A DNA stretch of 64,000 nucleotides. It comes from Malachius bipustulatus (Eukaryota; Arthropoda; Insecta; Coleoptera; Melyridae). Numbering within the stretch: the first letter of the stretch is position 1; the number at the start of each line of letters is the position of its first letter. The stretch covers positions 24,673,144-24,737,143 of the forward strand of contig OU342634.1 in NCBI GenBank assembly GCA_910589415.1. Direction: 5' to 3'. The position numbers and the translations under genes are program-made. Of this stretch, positions 1 to 57,935 are shown piece by piece. The notes under the pieces were generated by a model. It searched no databases, had not been told where the DNA came from, and saw nothing but the letters and a program-made list of their open reading frames with translations.

Positions 1-445
1 AAATTTTTTGTTTTTATTACACATATTTTATAGGAAGAACATGGTTATTTTTAAAGATTAAGAAAATAAATTCATAAAAATAATAATAACACTTTATTAA
101 TTATTTGTTTTAAAAAATATTACATAATAGAATAACTATTTATTACAATTAGAGAGATAAAATGTTTCACTTACCTTATTTATTTATACTAATGTCAGAT
201 ATAACTATTAACATTAATTGTTCTATCGCTCAAAAAACACCAAGAATGCGGAATTCTTGATAATTCTTTGTTTGAAATGTTTGAATTTGGAATTTGTATT
301 GTTGAATTGAATACGTCTCTTTGCCCTTACTTGTATGTATGGTTGCCTAACTTTGGTTGGCAACAAATTTTAGTCTCAAGGGTTCGTCCATTTATATTGT
401 GATTCTAGGTCTATGGTTGTGGGTTGTGGTTTGTGGTGGTCAAGG
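1..445. other. AT-rich intergenic sequence, no gene seen
   Basis: No open frame or recognisable domain is visible. The stretch is AT-rich and lies upstream of the zinc-finger gene, so its right part probably holds that gene's promoter, but I cannot point to a confident TATA or initiator. Confidence 0.5.
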
Positions 446-4776: not shown

Positions 4777-7700
4777 ATGTTTCCACGAAGTATTTTAGTT
4801 GCAAGAACAATTTATCAAAATGTAGTTAAGACTAAGTTCGACTCTGCGTCAGGAATCCAGATTTGTCAGTTAGGTAAGAGCATAATTATATCTATTTTCT
4901 CTTCTTAATTGGGATATTTTTCATGATTGCAGATAATGTACCGTCAAGATTTTATAACTCACTAACACTGAACAATCGATACGTAGAAGTGGCAACTGGC
5001 AATCATTCTCTTTGTGATAAGTGTTCATTTATCAGGCTCAGGTTCTTCTCCAATAAAAATATTCGGAATGAAAATAAAACAACTACAATTAAACCGGTAA
5101 GTACCTTCAAGAAAACTCCACCGCTGCCACTCCCTCGCCCTATTAAAATTTTCTAAAATCAATAAACTTATTCCCATCCTAGGTTAAGTCTACTTATAAT
5201 AACCAAGGTCAACTTATTTCAAAATATGCTTGACCATGACTTTTTTTAATAAATAATAACCTCTGATACACTAATATTCTCGTCTGTACTCTGAACTCTG
5301 AAAAATCAGTTGAGAATAAAGTTTCTGCGATCGTCATTTATCCTTTTTTCCCCTTCTCATTTATTTGCCTAAACCAGGAAAAGATAAAATTTCATGAGGG
5401 ACGCTTTAATAAAGTCTACTTTTATCAAATTATTAGTACACGTCATAATTATAATGTACGGCGTACGGTACCAGTGTATACTGTATCCAAGATATAAGAA
5501 TAAACAGCAAGGGGATCTTGGAAACCGGGGGAAATAAAGGGTGGGTTAAATGGGGGGGGGGGGGGAGGAAGTTGGGCAACCAGAAGGACAATGCAATGGC
5601 AAAAAGAGATTTCAAATTATTTTGAAAAAACAAAATTTTAATGCTTTCTGAACGACACACTTACTCCAACGGTATGGTGAAGACAGAGACATCGATGTTT
5701 CAATGGTTATTTCCATCTCATCAGTCTGTCACATCACCACCACTAGAGAAGTGTGCCGGTCAGAAAGAAAATCAAAAGCTTTAAGCAAAATGATTTGTCG
5801 GAAACATAGTGACTTGCATGGCAAATGCCATCTGATGACTGAAAAGTACAACTTTCAATGTGTCAATCAGAGATTCTCCCAGAGAAATCTGCAATTTTTC
5901 ACTACCAACGCTGACAGTTCACTGAAAAACCAATTACCTTGCGAATCTCAGTAAACCAATCAGAGATGGAGCTAGCCACAAAGCTGTGTTCCTAGAAAGG
6001 AAGTAGTTTCTATGAAACAAATTGAATAATAATAAATTATTATATCAATTACAGCAATCCGATTGTTGAAAAACAATAATGCTTTCTGAACGACACACTT
6101 ACTCCAACGGTATGGTGAAGACAGAGACATCGATGTTTCAATGGTTATTTCCATCTCATCAGTCTGTCACATCATTACTGAGATTCGCAAGGTAATTGGT
6201 TTTTCAGTGAACTGTCAGCGTTGGTAGTGAAAAATTGCAGATTTCTCTGGGAGAATCTCTGATTGACACATTGAAAGTTGTACTTTTCAGTCATCAGATG
6301 GCATTTGCCATGCAAGTCACTATGTTTCCGACAAATCATTTTGCTTAAAGCTTTTGATTTTCTTTCTGACCGGCACACTTCTCTAGTGGTGGTGATGTGA
6401 CAGACTGATGAGATGGAAATAACCATTGAAACATCGATGTCTCTGTCTTCACCATACCGTTGGAGTAAGTGTGTCGTTCAGAAAGCATTATTGTTTTTCA
6501 ACAATCGGATTGCTGTAATTGATATAATAATTTATTATTATTCAATTTGTTTCAACAAAATTTTGCATATTTTTGTTTTTCTTCATTTCTTTACTATACC
6601 TCAGTCGGCCAAAAGATATAGTAATAAACGTGCGCGGTAAGTTTACAATCCAGGTAGGCAGACCTTATAAACAAGAATTATATACACAAACCTTAGAATG
6701 CCCTTCTCATTGGTTTACAGGAACCAGGTAACCAATAAATAAGGCACTATCTGCCTACAGATGTGACTACTTGGACCTTAAAAGTTTGTGCGCAGTTTTA
6801 TTACTATATCTGTTGGTTGACTGAGGTATAGGAAAACCACATTTTCCTAGTCCTTCTGGTTGTCCAACTTTTTCCCCATTTAACCGACTCCTGTATATCC
6901 TACAAATTTCCGAGATTCCCATGCTGTTCATTCTTGCTTTGGACACAGTGTATTTGCAATTTTACTAAAGTAATTTGAAAAATTGAACCTTCAGTACCTA
7001 CTTGACCAGTCGACAGGTATCATTCTATCAATTTTTTGAGGTGTGGAGCATAATGTGAAATAGGTTGACTTACAGAATAATGGAAAATACAGTCTGGAAC
7101 TCAAATTGTTGAATTAATCGAATTGTCACCTTTCTTTTGTCGCTTACTGTGTAATAACCCTGATTTTTGTGCTACTTCTAGTTGATCTAATTATGTACTT
7201 AGATACTTCTGTCAATTATTTACGTATTTTTACTTTCAGGAGGAGAGTAAACCCATAGATGTAAAGGCGATTAAAGTCGGAAGTCCTGAAGAAATTTTAA
7301 GTGCTGCAAACGACTCTGATAAAAATGAATTAAATTTAGATATAACGAAAACGACAGAGCCAATAAAAGACACTAAAGTTAATAGCGATGGATCGAGTGA
7401 TACAAACGAGGATTGTGAGTAGATTCAGAATTTTCAAACAAGTGTCACTTAATCTCTGCAGTCTGCATGTTATTGCCCTCAATATCCAGATCTGACATGC
7501 AAATTATACCAATTTTTAGTAGATATTTTGGTATCTTAATTGAAAGAATAAATAATTTTTTCACTTTTAAAAGTTTTGTTTTTAATGTAAAATAAAAGGC
7601 CAAAAGTTTTTTTTGACCTTTTTTTATTTATTACTTCTTTATTTATAAGTTCTTTAACCTATATAAGGTCTTATTTAATCTTATAAGGGGGAATTATGAA

Positions 7701-18506: not shown

Positions 18507-18739
18507 TAAGCGCCCAAAGTTATTAAAAAGTACTTTTTTATATAGGTACAAAAACCCTGCAGAGATTTGGGATTGTCCAAGCCTAAGAATAACATAAACA
18601 TAATATATAAATAATTATAATAAATAGGTACATAAACTTAAATAATACAAGAGATCACAATAAAAGTAGATAAGCATATAATAGTAATAGAGGTACAATA
18701 AAAACTAATTAAGAAACTATTAAATAATATCATAAAATA

Positions 18740-18900
18740 ATAATTATATCAATAACAGCAAATCCGTTCATAGTATGTTCCCTGAACGAAATAACCTCAA
18801 ATGGTCTGGTACAGACAGAGACATCGACGTTTCGCTGTAGTTTCAGCTCATCAGTCTGCCATTGTCAACCAAGAACACACGTCTCGAATACATTAACCTA
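18740..18900 (-). repeat. Diverged second copy of the hammerhead-bearing repeat
   Basis: This aligns with 6040-6190 over about 130 bp: TTATATCAATAACAGCAAATCCG here against TTATATCAATTACAGCAATCCG, then CTGAACGA, GACAGAGACATCGA, CTCATCAGTCTG. Identity is roughly 70% by eye. AT-rich TAA-like sequence follows in ribozyme sense, as in the first locus. No partner copy or flanking duplication was found. Confidence 0.75.
18808..18870 (-). ncRNA. Hammerhead ribozyme D (type I), best-paired copy
   Basis: Minus strand: stem I GGCAGA/TCTGTC (one G-U) with an outer GGT/ACC helix; CTGATGA (complement of 18848-18854); stem II GCTG/CAGC with loop AAACTA; GAAA (complement of 18830-18833); stem III CG-TCGA-TG (one G-U); TC, with cleavage predicted between 18820 and 18819. 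Stem II here is fully Watson-Crick although its bases differ from copies A-C. That is compensatory change supporting a selected RNA fold. Confidence 0.85.
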
Positions 18901-51660: not shown

Positions 51661-52676
51661 ATGCCGAATACCAGTGTGACGATGGGGGAAATTTCGTCTC
51701 AGAAATTATCCTGTAAAAAGTGTAATAGGCATGTACTAAATGGGACAAAATGTGTAAAGTGCGAGAGCTATTTCCACCTTAAATGTGCTAAAAATTGTGG
51801 CTCTGTCAAGTATCTAGATATGGAAAAAAACATCATTGTGTGTTGTGAATCTCAGGATGATGAAGACGCGTTTTTTGATACCCTGGAAAGTCTCAGCGAT
51901 GACAAGTAATCAATGTCGAACTTTTTTGATGTATCATTAAACAGAAGGATGCCTTAATAATTAAGGAATTAAACAACAGAATAGATATTTTAAATGATCA
52001 TGTTGATATTTTGAAGAAGAGAGACAGTAAAATTAAACCTCAGATCGGCAAGACAAAGACGAATAATTGTGATAAGCCCGTTAAACCCAATAATTTAATT
52101 CATTTGCATGATACAAATCGACCAGCCGAAAATATTGAAACGATTGAAGGCATAAAAAATAAGCCGGCTAATAAAAGTAAAAATGACAATGTTGCCATAT
52201 TGACAAAAAAATCCTCAAATGATAAAAATTGTGTATCTGAGACTCTGGATCGGAATGATACTGGGGACAAAAGGGTTGGGGTTGTTAATGGGATGAGTGA
52301 GATGCCAGAGTTGGGGTAAAAACGGTGACTGGGATGTTATCGCAACACGGAAGAAAAGACCGATAGTTGTGGGGTCCAATGATAATGTAAATGTAAATGG
52401 CAAAAAATTGGTTGGTGTTCACAGATTTCATCACTTCATGTGTATAGAACTGATCCTCTCATGACTGCGACAGACCTGGAGGAGTTGCTAAGGACACTTC
52501 TGCCTGAGGTTTCTGTGGAGCTTCTAAACTCGAAGCATCCGAATTTGTATACTTCTTTCAAGGTTAGTGTACACAGTCAGAATTTAACAAAAGCTATGGA
52601 TCCATCCCTCTGGCCAAGTGGTGCCCATATTCGGCAATTTTTTTTCCCTCGTCCAAGGAGAACTGCTCCATCATAG
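51661..52676 (+). pseudogene. LINE ORF1 (PHD-like zinc finger protein), frameshifted
   Basis: 51661-51909 encodes C-K-K-C..G-T-K-C-V-K-C-E-S-Y-F-H-L-K-C-A, a PHD-like finger found in ORF1 of insect CR1/Jockey-group LINEs. The frame breaks at the TAA near 51907. It resumes about 51955-52319 with a coiled-coil and lysine-rich linker, then shifts again to 52440-52676, where R-T-D-P-L-M-T and F-F-F-P-R-P-R-R form the conserved C-terminal RNA-binding-like block. Confidence 0.8.
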
Positions 52677-52780
52677 AAGACGAGGGCTGGTCCGGAAATC
52701 CGGGGCGACAAACAACGGATGTCAATGAGGATGCGGATGTTCTTAAGGTTGGTACTCTCAAGAATGTTCTAGATTATGGT

Positions 52781-53485
52781 GTGTTGAGTTTATTTCATGT
52801 TAACGTGCAGGGAATTGCAAACAAGATCGATCAGCTAAATTTGTTTCTGTCAGAGTATACCTTCAGTATTTTTTGTGTCTCTGAACATTGGCTGTCAGAG
52901 TGCGACTTAAAAAGCGTGAATATTCATGGATATTCTCTGACCTTATATTTCTGCAGGGAAAACCGAGATAGGGGGGGGGGGGTGTGTATTTTTATTCGGA
53001 ACTCCCTCGATGTTAAGGAAATATTGCTTACTTCTTTTTGCGACGAATTAAATTCTGTATTTTGTGCTGTTGAAATATCTAATTTGAAATTAATTATTGT
53101 TGTGGTGTATGGGTCATCATGTTCGAGAGATCTTAACACTTTCTTTGGGAACCTTGAATGTGTGCTGACTGGCCTACTGCGGGGTTCATTTAGGATCATA
53201 GTCGCAGGTGACATTAATATAAACTTCAAGGTTGAATCTGAAAATCTTACCAAGTTTTTAAATTTATGCGACTCCTTCGGATTGCGTCCGACTATAAGTG
53301 ATTACACAAGAGTCACTCAGTATTCTGCTACTTGTTTTGACAATATTGTTACAAATATTGATGAGACGAACAGACAGGAGGGTGTTTTTGAAGCCTGCAT
53401 AGCTGACCATAGAGGACAATACATAGTCTTGAGTCATCAGGTTGGTGATTCGGTCCCTGCAGTGACAGAAAGGAGACATCTCTGA
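52781..53485 (+). pseudogene. LINE AP-endonuclease domain
   Basis: 234 residues with H-V-N-V-Q-G, C-V-S-E-H-W-L, R-G-G-G-V-C-I-F-I-R, V-V-Y-G, V-A-G-D-I-N-I-N-F and the terminal A-D-H-R-G-Q motif: the order of APE-type endonucleases that nick target DNA for target-primed reverse transcription. The usual SDH is ADH here. A G run at 52972-52982 lies inside. The frame ends at TGA before reaching the RT. Confidence 0.85.
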
Positions 53486-54375
53486 GATTGGGTTGAGTAA
53501 GTTTAGATCATCTGTCTGTAGTACTGACTGGTGAACAATTTTAAATTTAGGTGATGAAATGAATGCCATGGCCACTTGGTTAGTCAATACGTACAAATTC
53601 GTGGTGGATTGTTTTCCTTTGAAAAAAAGTACTTCTGTCTCTCCACCAGTGAAATGGTTTAATCAGGAATTAACAAGAAAACGACAATTTTTATCATTGT
53701 TGAAAGTCATATTAGGTGATGTTGGAGGGGATCCTCAGGGGGGGGTCTCTTTAACGGGAGTTGAGGAAGGACTATCGAAAATCAGTTGCATCCGCAAAGA
53801 GAGGAGCCTGGTAAATTTTGAACTCAACAGAAAATCCACTCCCAAAGCTAGCAAATCCCTTACAGCGGATGATTTTATAGTAGGATTAACTTTAAAAAGT
53901 CAGATGTGACGTCTTACTAACCGTCCGAATTAATATTTTTAATTTCACCAGAAAATGTCAAACAGTTAATTGTCAAGTTGTGAACGAGCGTAATTATTAT
54001 TGAAGGAATCATTCAAAAAATGAATTGAACCGCTTACGTCAGTTTGAGAGCCACTGACAACTACATAAAATTTATTCACGTAATGACATTCTATCCTCTG
54101 TGCTTGCATTTAATTCTCATTCAAAACCAATGTTGACGTATACTTATTTATGCGGGATGGAGTGTTTAGACAAACTGGACAGTTACTATAAAAACACGTA
54201 CATGAAACAAAATAAATCGAACCATCAAAAGGATGTGTATTCTTAATCGATACGTATGACTTTTTAGACTTTATTGGATTATAATGACTTTTTTGCTTCT
54301 GTGGCTGCCAATGTAATAAAGAGTATTTCTACTATCTCTGCTCAAAGTAGCGATTTTTAAAAATATCTACCTCCA
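53486..54375 (+). pseudogene. Damaged LINE linker between endonuclease and RT
   Basis: The 53559-53909 frame (W-F-N-Q-E-L-T-R-K-R) still resembles the linker of the LINE ORF2. After 53909 coding potential fades and no frame longer than 60 codons appears before 54376. Confidence 0.55.
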
Positions 54376-55668
54376 GTGAATTTTAACTTTTTTCTGCAGG
54401 GAGTGACCACTAGGGAAGTACATGATGTAATAACTGGGTTGAAGAGATCTTCGGTGGGTGACTTCTATGGCCTGAGTGACATATTTTTAATGGAGTCGGT
54501 CGATTTATTGGCTGAGCCACTTGCATATTTAATAAATTGTTGTTTTACTCAGGGAATTTTTTCAGATGCTTTCAAGTTTGGGAAAATTTTGCCTCTACAC
54601 AAGAAAGGTGACTTAGAAACTGGGCCGGTTTCCATTATTCTTATTTTTTCAAAAGTATTTGAGATTCTGCTAAAGAACAGACTATACAAATATTTTGAAA
54701 AGTTTAAATTATTACATCCTGCCCAATTCGGGTTTCGAAAGAACAAGTCGACAGTCAGAGCTCTTCTGGAGATCGTGGAGAGCGTGGTGTGGGGCTTGGA
54801 GGAGAATAAACATTCTTTGTTGACTATGTGCGATCTTTCGAAGGCTTTTGACTGTGTCTCCCATAAGATCCTGATACAAAAGCTTGAATGTTATGGCGTG
54901 AGAGGTGTGCCTTTGAGTTTGTTTGAGTCCTACTTGAGCCATAGACAGCAGTCTGTTTATATGAGTGGGAATAGGTCCGGGTTAAACAAAATAAAACATG
55001 GTGTTCCTCAGGGCTCTGTTCTGGGACCGCTACTGTTCGTCATGTACATAAATGATCTTTGTTACTACATGCACGAAAAATGTGGGGTTGTGCTCTTTGC
55101 GGACGACACGTCCTTTTCCTGCTCCGGGGCGAGTGTTTCGGAGCTGATTAAGTACTCGAATAATACAATACTGGCAATGGGAGAGGAGTGGTTTTCCGCA
55201 AATAGGTTACAGCTAAATAAAGATAAAACTCAGAGTTTGATTATTTTTAGTAACAATACCATCAGTACGGGCAAGCACTGCAGACTGCTTGGTGTCTCGC
55301 TTGATGATTCTTTAAATTGGACATGGACATGTCATATAAATGAATTAAGGGGGAATTTAGCAAGCATACTGTTCTTGCTCAGACAACTCCGGAAAGTTCT
55401 GAGTTCATTTATGTTAAAGAACATATATTTTGGACTCTTTCATTCTTTGGTCAGCTATGGAGCTACTTTATGGGGCCACTCGGTTCATTCAATTAAGGTG
55501 TTTAGACTACAAAAACGTGCAGTGAGAATTTTAGCTGGGGCTGGGTGTAGGGATCATTGTCGACCTTTATTTAAAAGGCTCAAGATTTTACCACTCCCGT
55601 GTGTCTATATGCACCAGACGCTAGAGGAAATTCACGCAAAGAGAAACTGTTTATCAAAGGTGGTGTAG
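54376..55668 (+). pseudogene. LINE reverse transcriptase domain
   Basis: 430 residues with V-G-D-F-Y-G-L-S, G-K-I-L-P-L-H-K-K-G-D, P-A-Q-F-G-F-R-K-N-K-S-T, D-L-S-K-A-F-D-C-V-S, G-V-P-Q-G-S-V-L-G-P-L-L-F and catalytic F-A-D-D-T-S, the RT blocks of CR1/Jockey-type LINEs. Between G-K-I-L-P-L-H-K-K-G-D and the S-K-V-F-E block the usual N-Y-R-P-I-S-I-L is reduced to G-P-V-S-I-I-L, suggesting a small deletion. The frame is cut at 55664 by the solo LTR. Confidence 0.88.
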
Positions 55669-57171: not shown

Positions 57172-57778
57172 TTACTTAACTTTAACAAACTGGGCTTGCA
57201 GTTCATAAACACCAACAGATTGGCTTATATTTTCATCATATTCAACCCACTCTTTTTCCGATAAATCAATATCATTGAACACTTTTGGACTGTCTTCAAC
57301 TTTGGCGATCCAACCACTGCTCGGAGAAAAATCGATCGGTTCGATTCCGCGACAATCGAAAGTGACTATGCTTTTGAATTCCTCCACGTCTTTATTTGTA
57401 TATTTTCCTAAAAAATTGTAACAGCTGTTTAAAAAAATCATAAACCTTATCATCCAGGTGAAGTCACTCAGGTCAAGAGTGCTGTTAGTTGTGTTGTAAC
57501 TGTAAGTGTAATAAAAAGAAAAACGTACCATTACTTTCTTCCACTATATCCAAATTATTTTCCCGTCCGCATAACTTACATTTAGCTAAATAATGAGTGT
57601 CAGTTTTTCCAGTTTTTGTTGGAAAAGTCTGCGATTCGGTTACATCATGCCACTTCTCAGATATTTCACCACAATTCAAGCATTTCAGCTTTAAAAGATA
57701 AGTGTACTCCGGATGGTTCACGTAGAGTTCTTCGATATTTTCCAATGTTGCTTTAATTTGTAAACTAATCTTTACCAT
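57172..57778 (-). CDS. CZIB: CXXC-motif zinc-binding protein (UPF0587/DUF866), 2 exons
   Basis: Exons 57778-57529 and 57407-57172 (minus) join in phase to give 161 aa, matching the ~160 aa of the human protein (C1orf123). Two CXXC pairs form the zinc site: C-L-N-C (residues ~33-36) and C-K-L-C (~67-70). The second half carries F-D-C-R-G-I-E-P-I-D-F-S-P and W-I-A-K, hallmark family blocks. The fold is a small cytosolic zinc-binding beta-rich domain; the cellular role is not settled. The single intron is 121 bp. Confidence 0.93.
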
Positions 57779-57935
57779 TTTGAATCTTTCCTGTTTCCCT
57801 TAATGCTTTTCTTCTGAGTTCTGAGTATTTTTATTATTACGATTTTGATTTTGATTTTATTAATTTTACAATAATAATGGTAATTTTACTAATTAGTAAT
57901 TTTAATTTTTGTAATATTTTTTTTTATAATATAAT

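Follow-up and report, generated by a model that had tools for sequence, protein, structure and literature searches.

What kind of element carries three hammerhead ribozyme motifs on opposing strands within a single repeat, and how did it enter the genome? The question is raised by a locus in a 64-kb stretch of DNA from the beetle Malachius bipustulatus (the window, numbered from its first letter), and it bears on a wider problem. For the movement of animal retrozymes, LINEs or Penelope-like elements (PLEs) have been named as candidates, with PLEs a strong candidate (PMC7229834), and reviews similarly name PLEs/Terminons (PMC7761336) and LINEs or PLEs (PMC11722881). PLE-type enzymes have long been suspected, rather than shown, to move animal retrozymes, and the copies left by insertion bear on the identity of the mover. 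The insertion of PLEs is itself incompletely known (PMC11167929), and retrozyme copies constitute a natural record of both the mover and its mechanism.

Hammerhead motifs in the window

A sequence-only reading of this DNA had placed three complete hammerhead cores, with stems I and II paired, in the window. The core pattern CTGATGA-N6-36-GAAACATCGATG matches the window exactly at these three sites, 5690-5724 (-), 6128-6162 (-) and 6405-6439 (+), with identical cores, and gives no match in 100 dinucleotide-preserving shuffles. Direct reading of the window sequence agrees that the core is complete and that both stems are paired. Stem I is formed by GACAGA/TCTGTC plus GGTGA/TCACC and, in the two complete copies, runs on into a long imperfect hairpin; stem II pairs GATGG with CCATT, with a G-U pair at its base; and stem III (CA-TCGA-TG) consists of two pairs and a UCGA loop. 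The conserved boxes CUGAUGA and GAAA, the A15.1-U16.1 pair and the cleavage triplet GTC (GUC in RNA) are all present, and the cut that had been predicted after 6441 on the plus strand is correctly placed. The two minus-strand cut sites, after 5688 and 6126, are 438 nt apart. The copy at 6114-6172, whose outer stem I is shortened by the 6174/6175 junction, folds less well alone. In minimum-free-energy predictions for the two complete copies, stems I and II appear but the core is paired otherwise.

Rfam, which had been suggested as a check on the motif, gives no match at the gathering score across the 64 kb and no hammerhead at E values up to 10 in the interval 5000-7400. When a 76-base stretch is searched alone, sub-threshold matches appear to RF00008 (14.3 bits) and RF03152 (13.6 bits). 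Taken alone, the Rfam criterion would fail the hammerhead finding. Because Rfam is silent on the window hammerheads, the motif was judged instead on its core, pairing, copies and fold, and by these features the three-hammerhead observation is confirmed, the motifs being putative active ribozymes.

An older, divergent copy of the same superfamily lies elsewhere in the window (Table 1) and reaches 19.1 bits with RF02275, under the cut-off. An alignment of the superfamily's hammerheads holds 38 rows (37 distinct) drawn from 40 candidates, the two omitted being L139 and L148, whose fetched pieces showed no core. Most of the 38 aligned copies have an old, decaying appearance. Covariation among them is modest, with 8 cells showing double changes versus 4.1 in shuffles (a value reached by 18 of 500), and 86.9% of cells are paired versus 85.9% when shuffled (23/500), falling to at most 55% when slid.

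Anatomy of the insertion

The three motifs belong to one insertion, in which 1.2 sense units on the minus strand are joined head-to-head to a partial unit on the plus strand (Table 1). The proposal that a single repeat element holds all three ribozymes is thus upheld, although its head-to-head tandem-unit structure and its recurrence across the genome had gone unseen. The ends previously given to the element, 5640 and 6554, are right to one base, with the two copies of a target-site duplication (TSD) bracketing 5640-6553. Among random boundary pairs drawn in the window with the same slack, duplications of 11 bp or more occur in 7 of 20000.

Table 1. Positions of the insertion, its parts and a related sequence in the window
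Feature	Position	Strand	Description
Whole retrozyme insertion	5640..6553		914 bp, head-to-head: minus arm then plus arm
Left TSD copy	5629..5639		11 bp, AACAAAATTTT
Right TSD copy	6554..6564		11 bp, AACAAAATTTT
Arm 1	5640..6174	-	535 nt, a 438-nt unit and a further 97 nt; outer end = site X, unit position 97
Arm 2	6175..6553	+	partial unit, 379 nt; outer end = site Y, unit position 161
Full unit	5737..6174	-	complete repeat unit of 438 nt, numbered from 6174 as unit position 1
Head-to-head junction	6174..6175		meeting point of the 5' ends of both copied strands
'Tail'	6490..6553	+	stretch between X and Y, found at just one of the outer ends, a trait shared with Penelope-like elements
Hammerhead, type I	5676..5738	-	complete; predicted cut after 5688, minus-strand reading
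Hammerhead, type I	6114..6172	-	core complete, outer stem I shortened by junction; predicted cut after 6126
Hammerhead, type I	6391..6453	+	complete; predicted cut after 6441
Older divergent copy	18710..18861	-	same superfamily, 70% identical; fourth hammerhead core

The 438-nt unit has a GC content of 37% and a sense strand that is predicted to be highly structured. Folded as a circle, this strand reaches -137.5 kcal/mol versus a mean of -98.7 for dinucleotide shuffles (sd 5.3, n = 100; z = -7.4), and the antisense strand folds at -113.0 kcal/mol. In a listing of frames of 90 aa or more, the longest within the element is 100 aa from stop to stop. There are no terminal direct repeats in the element beyond the tandem unit, and sequence reading finds no poly(A) and no tail repeat at the window copy. 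The insertion appears to be nested in an older MITE-like element, represented by imperfect inverted repeats at 5496-5589 and 6850-6935.

The window has other contents as well. LINE fragments occupy 52568-55668, where RVT_1 scores above and Exo_endo_phos below the cut-off, and exons within 57172-57799 encode a CXXC zinc-binding protein that matches proteins of Onthophagus taurus (76%, the best named match), Popillia (71%) and Tribolium (70%), which places the host among the beetles.

A dispersed family of non-coding copies

Across the genome searched (544 Mb in 52 contigs), the exact core pattern together with the cleavage site matches 925 times, 487 on the plus and 438 on the minus strand, and the reversed-pattern control matches nowhere. 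A search with the unit yielded 1383 first-look candidates, of which the best 40 places were scored. These 40 loci are spread over nine contigs and hold 198 matches, most among the matches listed being 98-100% identical. Thirty-eight were fetched in full or nearly so; the other two (C13:39.70M and C13:44.85M) were read by their ends only and are left out of the variant, inner-end and trimmed-end analyses, which use the 38. The ribozyme is unchanged in 104 of the 112 units that span it.

Copies of the family are short and non-coding and number in the hundreds, and many are young, with ends that can be read. Its multiple copies, their TSDs and their dispersal bear out the earlier view of a non-coding, ribozyme-bearing retroelement of the host that is no isolated accident. 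The accompanying suggestion that the repeat may be undescribed holds only in part. The element has the sequence features of published retrozymes, so that its kind, the animal non-LTR retrozyme, is already described, whereas this particular family was not found in the open-access papers searched. Phage records contain no match to the element. In viral contigs, a shorter form of the core pattern marks 13 loci, 4 of which also match a tighter hammerhead regex.

Orientation, duplications and outer ends

The head-to-head arrangement is the rule in this family. Thirty-eight of the best 40 loci have a minus arm followed by a plus arm, two are single-armed (L036 and C7:44.77M, the latter also designated L076) and none is tail-to-tail; the plus arm of one of the 38, L037, is only 21 nt long. 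A score-independent sample was formed from the 925 core matches by taking the 100 listed first, which all lie on contig C1 and make up 75 loci. Each of the 17 loci in this sample that have ribozymes on both strands is head-to-head. The remainder comprises 55 loci with a single exact core, for which arm arrangement is not resolvable by the core pattern, and 3 with cores on one strand only.

Exact TSDs of 10-15 bp (median 12) flank 36 of the 40 loci, the exceptions being L057 (whose left end is interrupted and lies outside the fetched piece), C7:44.77M, C16:3.35M (L078) and C13:39.7M. Random boundary pairs from the fetched loci reach at least 10 bp in 55 of 3000 cases, including some pairs with both points inside repeat copies. 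A logo of the target sites is AT-rich with no sharp motif, and the insertions do not sit in (AT)n runs.

The outer ends of the arms cluster at two unit positions. In windows drawn after the data were seen, both raw outer ends fall in X (95-113) or Y (155-171) at 32 loci, and all 32 combine one X end with one Y end; if each arm took X or Y independently and with equal chance, X/X or Y/Y combinations would be expected at about half of them. Once trimmed for the TSD, the ends of the 31 such loci fetched in full lie at 92-110 (X) and 158-168 (Y). Eight of the 40 loci are without two canonical ends. Among them, L024 (Y, ~75), L064 (~67, Y) and L063 (~393, X) have a clean TSD, and L036 is a clean single-armed insertion that ends at Y and has a TSD; C16:3.35M (182, X), C13:39.7M (Y, 329) and the single-armed C7:44.77M (X) are without one, and the eighth locus is L057.

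Comparable ends occur in a second family of the same genome. The Rfam type I model RF00163 has 74 matches over the cut-off elsewhere in the genome, and the 14 of these places that were fetched all belong to a different hammerhead family with a 320-nt unit, which shows no significant sequence similarity to the 438-nt element. Among its best 40 places, all 16 loci with matches on both strands are head-to-head, as judged from the 150 matches listed out of 264. End mapping excluded matches with a length of exactly 35 nt, which represent an internal hairpin echo. The five two-armed loci at which both ends are canonical (L090-L093 and L157) all end at 107-111 and 255-257, and they have TSDs of 12-17 bp. 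Two loci have a non-canonical left end (L159, ends 320 and 108; L094, ~30 and 107), and five of the 14 are single-armed (L019, L158, L160, C1:2.2M and C1:8.35M). Of the other places examined, L156 is cut by the fetch and L014 is an old copy.

Shared ancestry of the two arms

Among 67 rare substitutions at sites covered by both arms, 10 are present in both, compared with 0.46 expected if the arms were independent; this count excludes indels, substitutions found in more than 4 of the 38 loci and those within 12 nt of a segment end. Nine of the 10 shared variants are found in every covering unit of both arms. At position 416, both arms of the window insertion itself have C, a state shared by L022 and L034, and T occupies this position in all or nearly all units at the other 35 of the 38 loci. 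Rare variants common to both arms point to one RNA, or one RNA lineage, as their source.

The other 57 of the 67 rare variants are confined to one arm, mostly to one unit, and look as later mutations would. Two loci are more complex. In one arm of L071, a set of three variants is carried by only 2 of the 4 units, a pattern that is unexplained by a single monomer circle and that later mutation or duplication would explain. At L077, the common variant 70A is present in the plus arm and absent from the minus arm. Neither locus fits a single monomer template unless further events occurred.

Arm lengths and inner ends were counted at 35 two-armed loci, with L036, L037 and L076 excluded. Fifty of the 70 arms exceed one unit in length, and none of the 70 inner ends falls at positions 46-53, the expected start of a linear RNA cut by the ribozyme (the nearest is at 45, in L072). 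These lengths and ends fit a circle or an uncut multimer.

Penelope-like elements of the same genome

The genome contains 150 scored matches to the GIY-YIG profile, and neighbouring pairs of these within 9 kb are head-to-head in 23 cases and tail-to-tail in 2. Its PLE proteins include frames of 833-848 aa. One family, here called PLE family A, has a frame with RVT_1 and GIY-YIG, together with a minimal hammerhead. All three of its head-to-head insertions with both ends readable have one outer end each in the intervals 2626-2628 and 2667-2670, a spacing of about 40 nt; a fourth insertion (L101/L102), whose left end is interrupted, was left out of this two-site count. The TSDs of PLE family A are unreadable because the ends lie in (AT)n runs, and two further PLE families show dinucleotide-shift matches at their ends. 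Since the retrozymes lie outside such runs, none of these PLE families is an obvious partner for them.

The 438-nt unit has short matches only (best E 0.09) to the pLTR regions of six PLE families, and the CTGATGA core was not found in five of the six PLE regions compared. The 320-nt unit has one 34-base, AT-rich match to the PLE regions (E 8e-4), which was attributed to low complexity. A partner PLE was not identified by sequence among the six families compared.

A proposed mechanism and its alternatives

The insertion anatomy, the two-site rule, the TSDs, the shared ancestry of the arms and the recurrence of the same rule in three PLE insertions are shown by the sequence comparisons. In our judgement it is probable that a PLE-type enzyme reverse-transcribes the retrozyme RNA, which is probably circular, starting on either side of a staggered break in the target DNA. 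Tandem units would first be transcribed, successive hammerheads would cut out a 438-nt RNA, and this RNA would probably be ligated into a circle; the cutting and the circle are proposed by analogy with published animal retrozymes. A PLE-type protein combining reverse transcriptase and GIY-YIG nuclease, acting in trans, would then bind the RNA close to two fixed start sites separated by about 60 nt, and we infer that PLE proteins are the agents of this step. AT-rich target DNA would be cut on both strands, about 12 bp apart, after which both 3' ends would serve as primers, with reverse transcription beginning at X from one of them and at Y from the other. The template could be traversed repeatedly, up to several times, and the 5' ends of the two cDNAs would be joined. 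The product would be a head-to-head insertion that has one X arm and one Y arm, together with a duplication of 10-15 bp.

Published work on PLEs bears on several of these steps. The PLE protein of Anolis cuts and extends both target strands and starts inside the RNA, and two internal start sites bound an optional 'tail' of 30-40 bp (PMC11167929). The inverted repeats of rotifer PLEs are most often head-to-head, with a tail that is optional on one inverted end, and several copies have TSDs of 8-10 bp (PMC3846280). The retrozyme copies described here display all of these insertion features. In vitro, however, the Anolis protein showed no difference in start site between the strands, and ribozyme cutting was unneeded (PMC11167929), a result that counts against the proposed model.

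A more general proposal seems to us about evenly balanced between true and false. Animal retrozymes could be the 'SINEs' of PLEs, with the enzyme, perhaps as a dimer, holding one circle at two fixed sites, cutting both target strands and carrying out two simultaneous rolling-circle reverse transcriptions, with one strand always started at X and the other always at Y. The obligatory pairing of one X end with one Y end would then be the normal mechanism of PLE insertion, read more cleanly from retrozymes than from PLEs. The rule of two start sites, one per strand, in arms that share RNA ancestry is testable and can be checked in other animal genomes that bear retrozymes.

A variant of the preferred explanation, compatible with it, is that PLE-type insertion proceeds from an uncut multimeric transcript and that the ribozyme acts elsewhere or late. 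Such a template is consistent with the use of uncut RNA by a PLE protein in vitro, where the ribozyme was dispensable (PMC11167929), and with variants that occur in only some units of one arm, as at L071; arms exceeding one unit are also expected from an uncut multimer. On the other hand, nine of the 10 shared rare variants are in every covering unit of both arms, and published animal retrozymes are abundant circles (PMC7229834). We regard this variant as possible, if rather unlikely.

It is improbable, by comparison with PLE-type insertion, that a LINE moves the retrozyme and that the inversions arise by twin priming of the L1 type, with the second end of the cut DNA priming at an internal position of the RNA. 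LINE fragments are present in the window at 52568-55668, and twin priming also yields 5' inversions with TSDs of similar length, which counts in favour of this route. In twin priming, though, the inverted piece starts at scattered places, inversion is a minority outcome, and there is a 3' poly(A) or similar tail. Here, by contrast, two arms are present at 38 of 40 loci, 32 of which have a fixed outer end on each strand, the window element is without poly(A), and PLEs of the same genome show the same pattern. Twin priming was rejected as the main mechanism on the fixed two-site ends.

Self-priming was proposed in 2013 for head-to-head PLEs with palindromic junctions (PMC3846280). In this scheme, cDNA made on an antisense template would fold back and copy itself to give inverted halves, which would put the inner ends side by side, whereas at only 2 of the 35 junctions are the inner ends within 20 nt of one another on the unit, with 3.3 expected by chance. 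It also leaves two different fixed outer ends unexplained. Self-priming was rejected as the main mechanism on junction positions and outer ends, and we consider it very improbable. Least credible of all is a satellite or fold-back DNA element shaped by DNA-level rearrangement, with ribozymes as relics: satellites often contain tandem units and inverted repeats, but 36 of the 40 loci, on nine contigs, have their own TSD of 10-15 bp, the ribozyme is unchanged in 104 of 112 units, and the sense strand has a strong predicted fold. A PLE-type enzyme acting on retrozyme RNA thus provides the preferred explanation.

Comparison with known systems

By its sequence features, the element is an animal non-LTR retrozyme. 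Like published members of this group (PMC7229834), it has in each unit a type I hammerhead with a short stem III, is non-coding and consists of direct tandem units of a few hundred bases, apparently bounded by ribozyme cuts. It also shares with them a TSD of more than 4 bp, low GC and a highly self-paired predicted circle (PMC7229834). Its unit is 438 nt, compared with published animal retrozyme RNAs of about 170-400 nt and repeats of 150-450 bp (PMC7229834). The insertions described here are head-to-head with two fixed ends, whereas the words 'inverted', 'inversion', 'head-to-head' and 'opposite' are absent from the main text of PMC7229834, and inverted retrozyme insertions were not found in the passages of PMC6431247 and PMC11722881 consulted. 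Searches of the open-access literature found neither head-to-head retrozyme insertions nor a hammerhead retrozyme in Coleoptera. What is new here is the two-ended, two-site mode of insertion, which for retrozymes was not found in the open-access papers searched.

The Dolichopoda pDo500 satellite likewise places a hammerhead in a non-coding insect repeat, a likeness drawn by description alone (PMC2837043). Plant LTR retrozymes have type III hammerheads in their LTRs and 4-bp TSDs, unlike the type I motif and 11-bp TSD of this element. LINEs and SINEs have one fixed 3' end and a poly(A) or simple-repeat tail, unlike the two fixed opposite-strand ends of this family. The 320-nt family is like the element in its head-to-head mixed loci, its type I hammerhead and, at the five canonical loci, its two fixed ends and TSD; it is unlike it in matching RF00163 over the cut-off and in its dissimilar sequence.

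In its mode of insertion the element resembles PLEs, with which it shares head-to-head copies, a short TSD, a one-ended 'tail', tandem units and a hammerhead upstream of the start sites (PMC3846280, PMC11167929). Unlike PLEs, it has no reverse transcriptase or GIY-YIG gene, and its hammerhead is canonical rather than minimal. The element works like a PLE insertion and is no PLE.

Genomic setting of the retrozyme insertions

The imperfect inverted repeats about the retrozyme in the window look like those of a MITE-like element, which, judging from the sequence, would have served as the target of the retrozyme insertion. L065, another retrozyme insertion, has flanks that on both sides weakly match an older related retrozyme, into which it seems to have inserted. 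The divergent copy elsewhere in the window is a member of an older superfamily, for which a genome search returned 374 first-look candidates.

Two separate insertions, L067 and L077, share an identical head-to-head junction (unit 220/276, with a 3-bp overlap), and their variants differ despite this common junction, which is perhaps a microhomology hotspot.

Features of the window and of related elements
Feature	Position	Strand	Basis or content
Imperfect inverted repeat pair flanking the retrozyme	5496-5589 and 6850-6935		
Second imperfect inverted repeat pair, near the retrozyme	6590-6644 and 6781-6835		
Divergent retrozyme copy with fourth hammerhead core	18710-18861	minus	older superfamily member
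LINE fragments	52568-55668		Exo_endo_phos-like (below cut-off) and RVT_1 frames
GTTG...CAAC-type hairpin, Penelope-like element (PLE)	L084 2628-2667		by eye
GTTG...CAAC-type hairpin, 438-nt retrozyme	unit 98-116		by eye
GTTG...CAAC-type hairpin, 320-nt retrozyme	320-nt unit, near 69-88		by eye

Relation to Penelope-like elements

Matches to GIY-YIG of the Penelope-like type extend over nearly the entire 84-kb contig C11 of the beetle genome, with 6 on the minus strand followed by 18 on the plus strand, at a period of about 3327 and with 833-aa frames intact in many. Small GTTG...CAAC-type hairpins, spotted by eye, lie close to the proposed reverse-transcription start sites in the PLE and in both retrozyme families.
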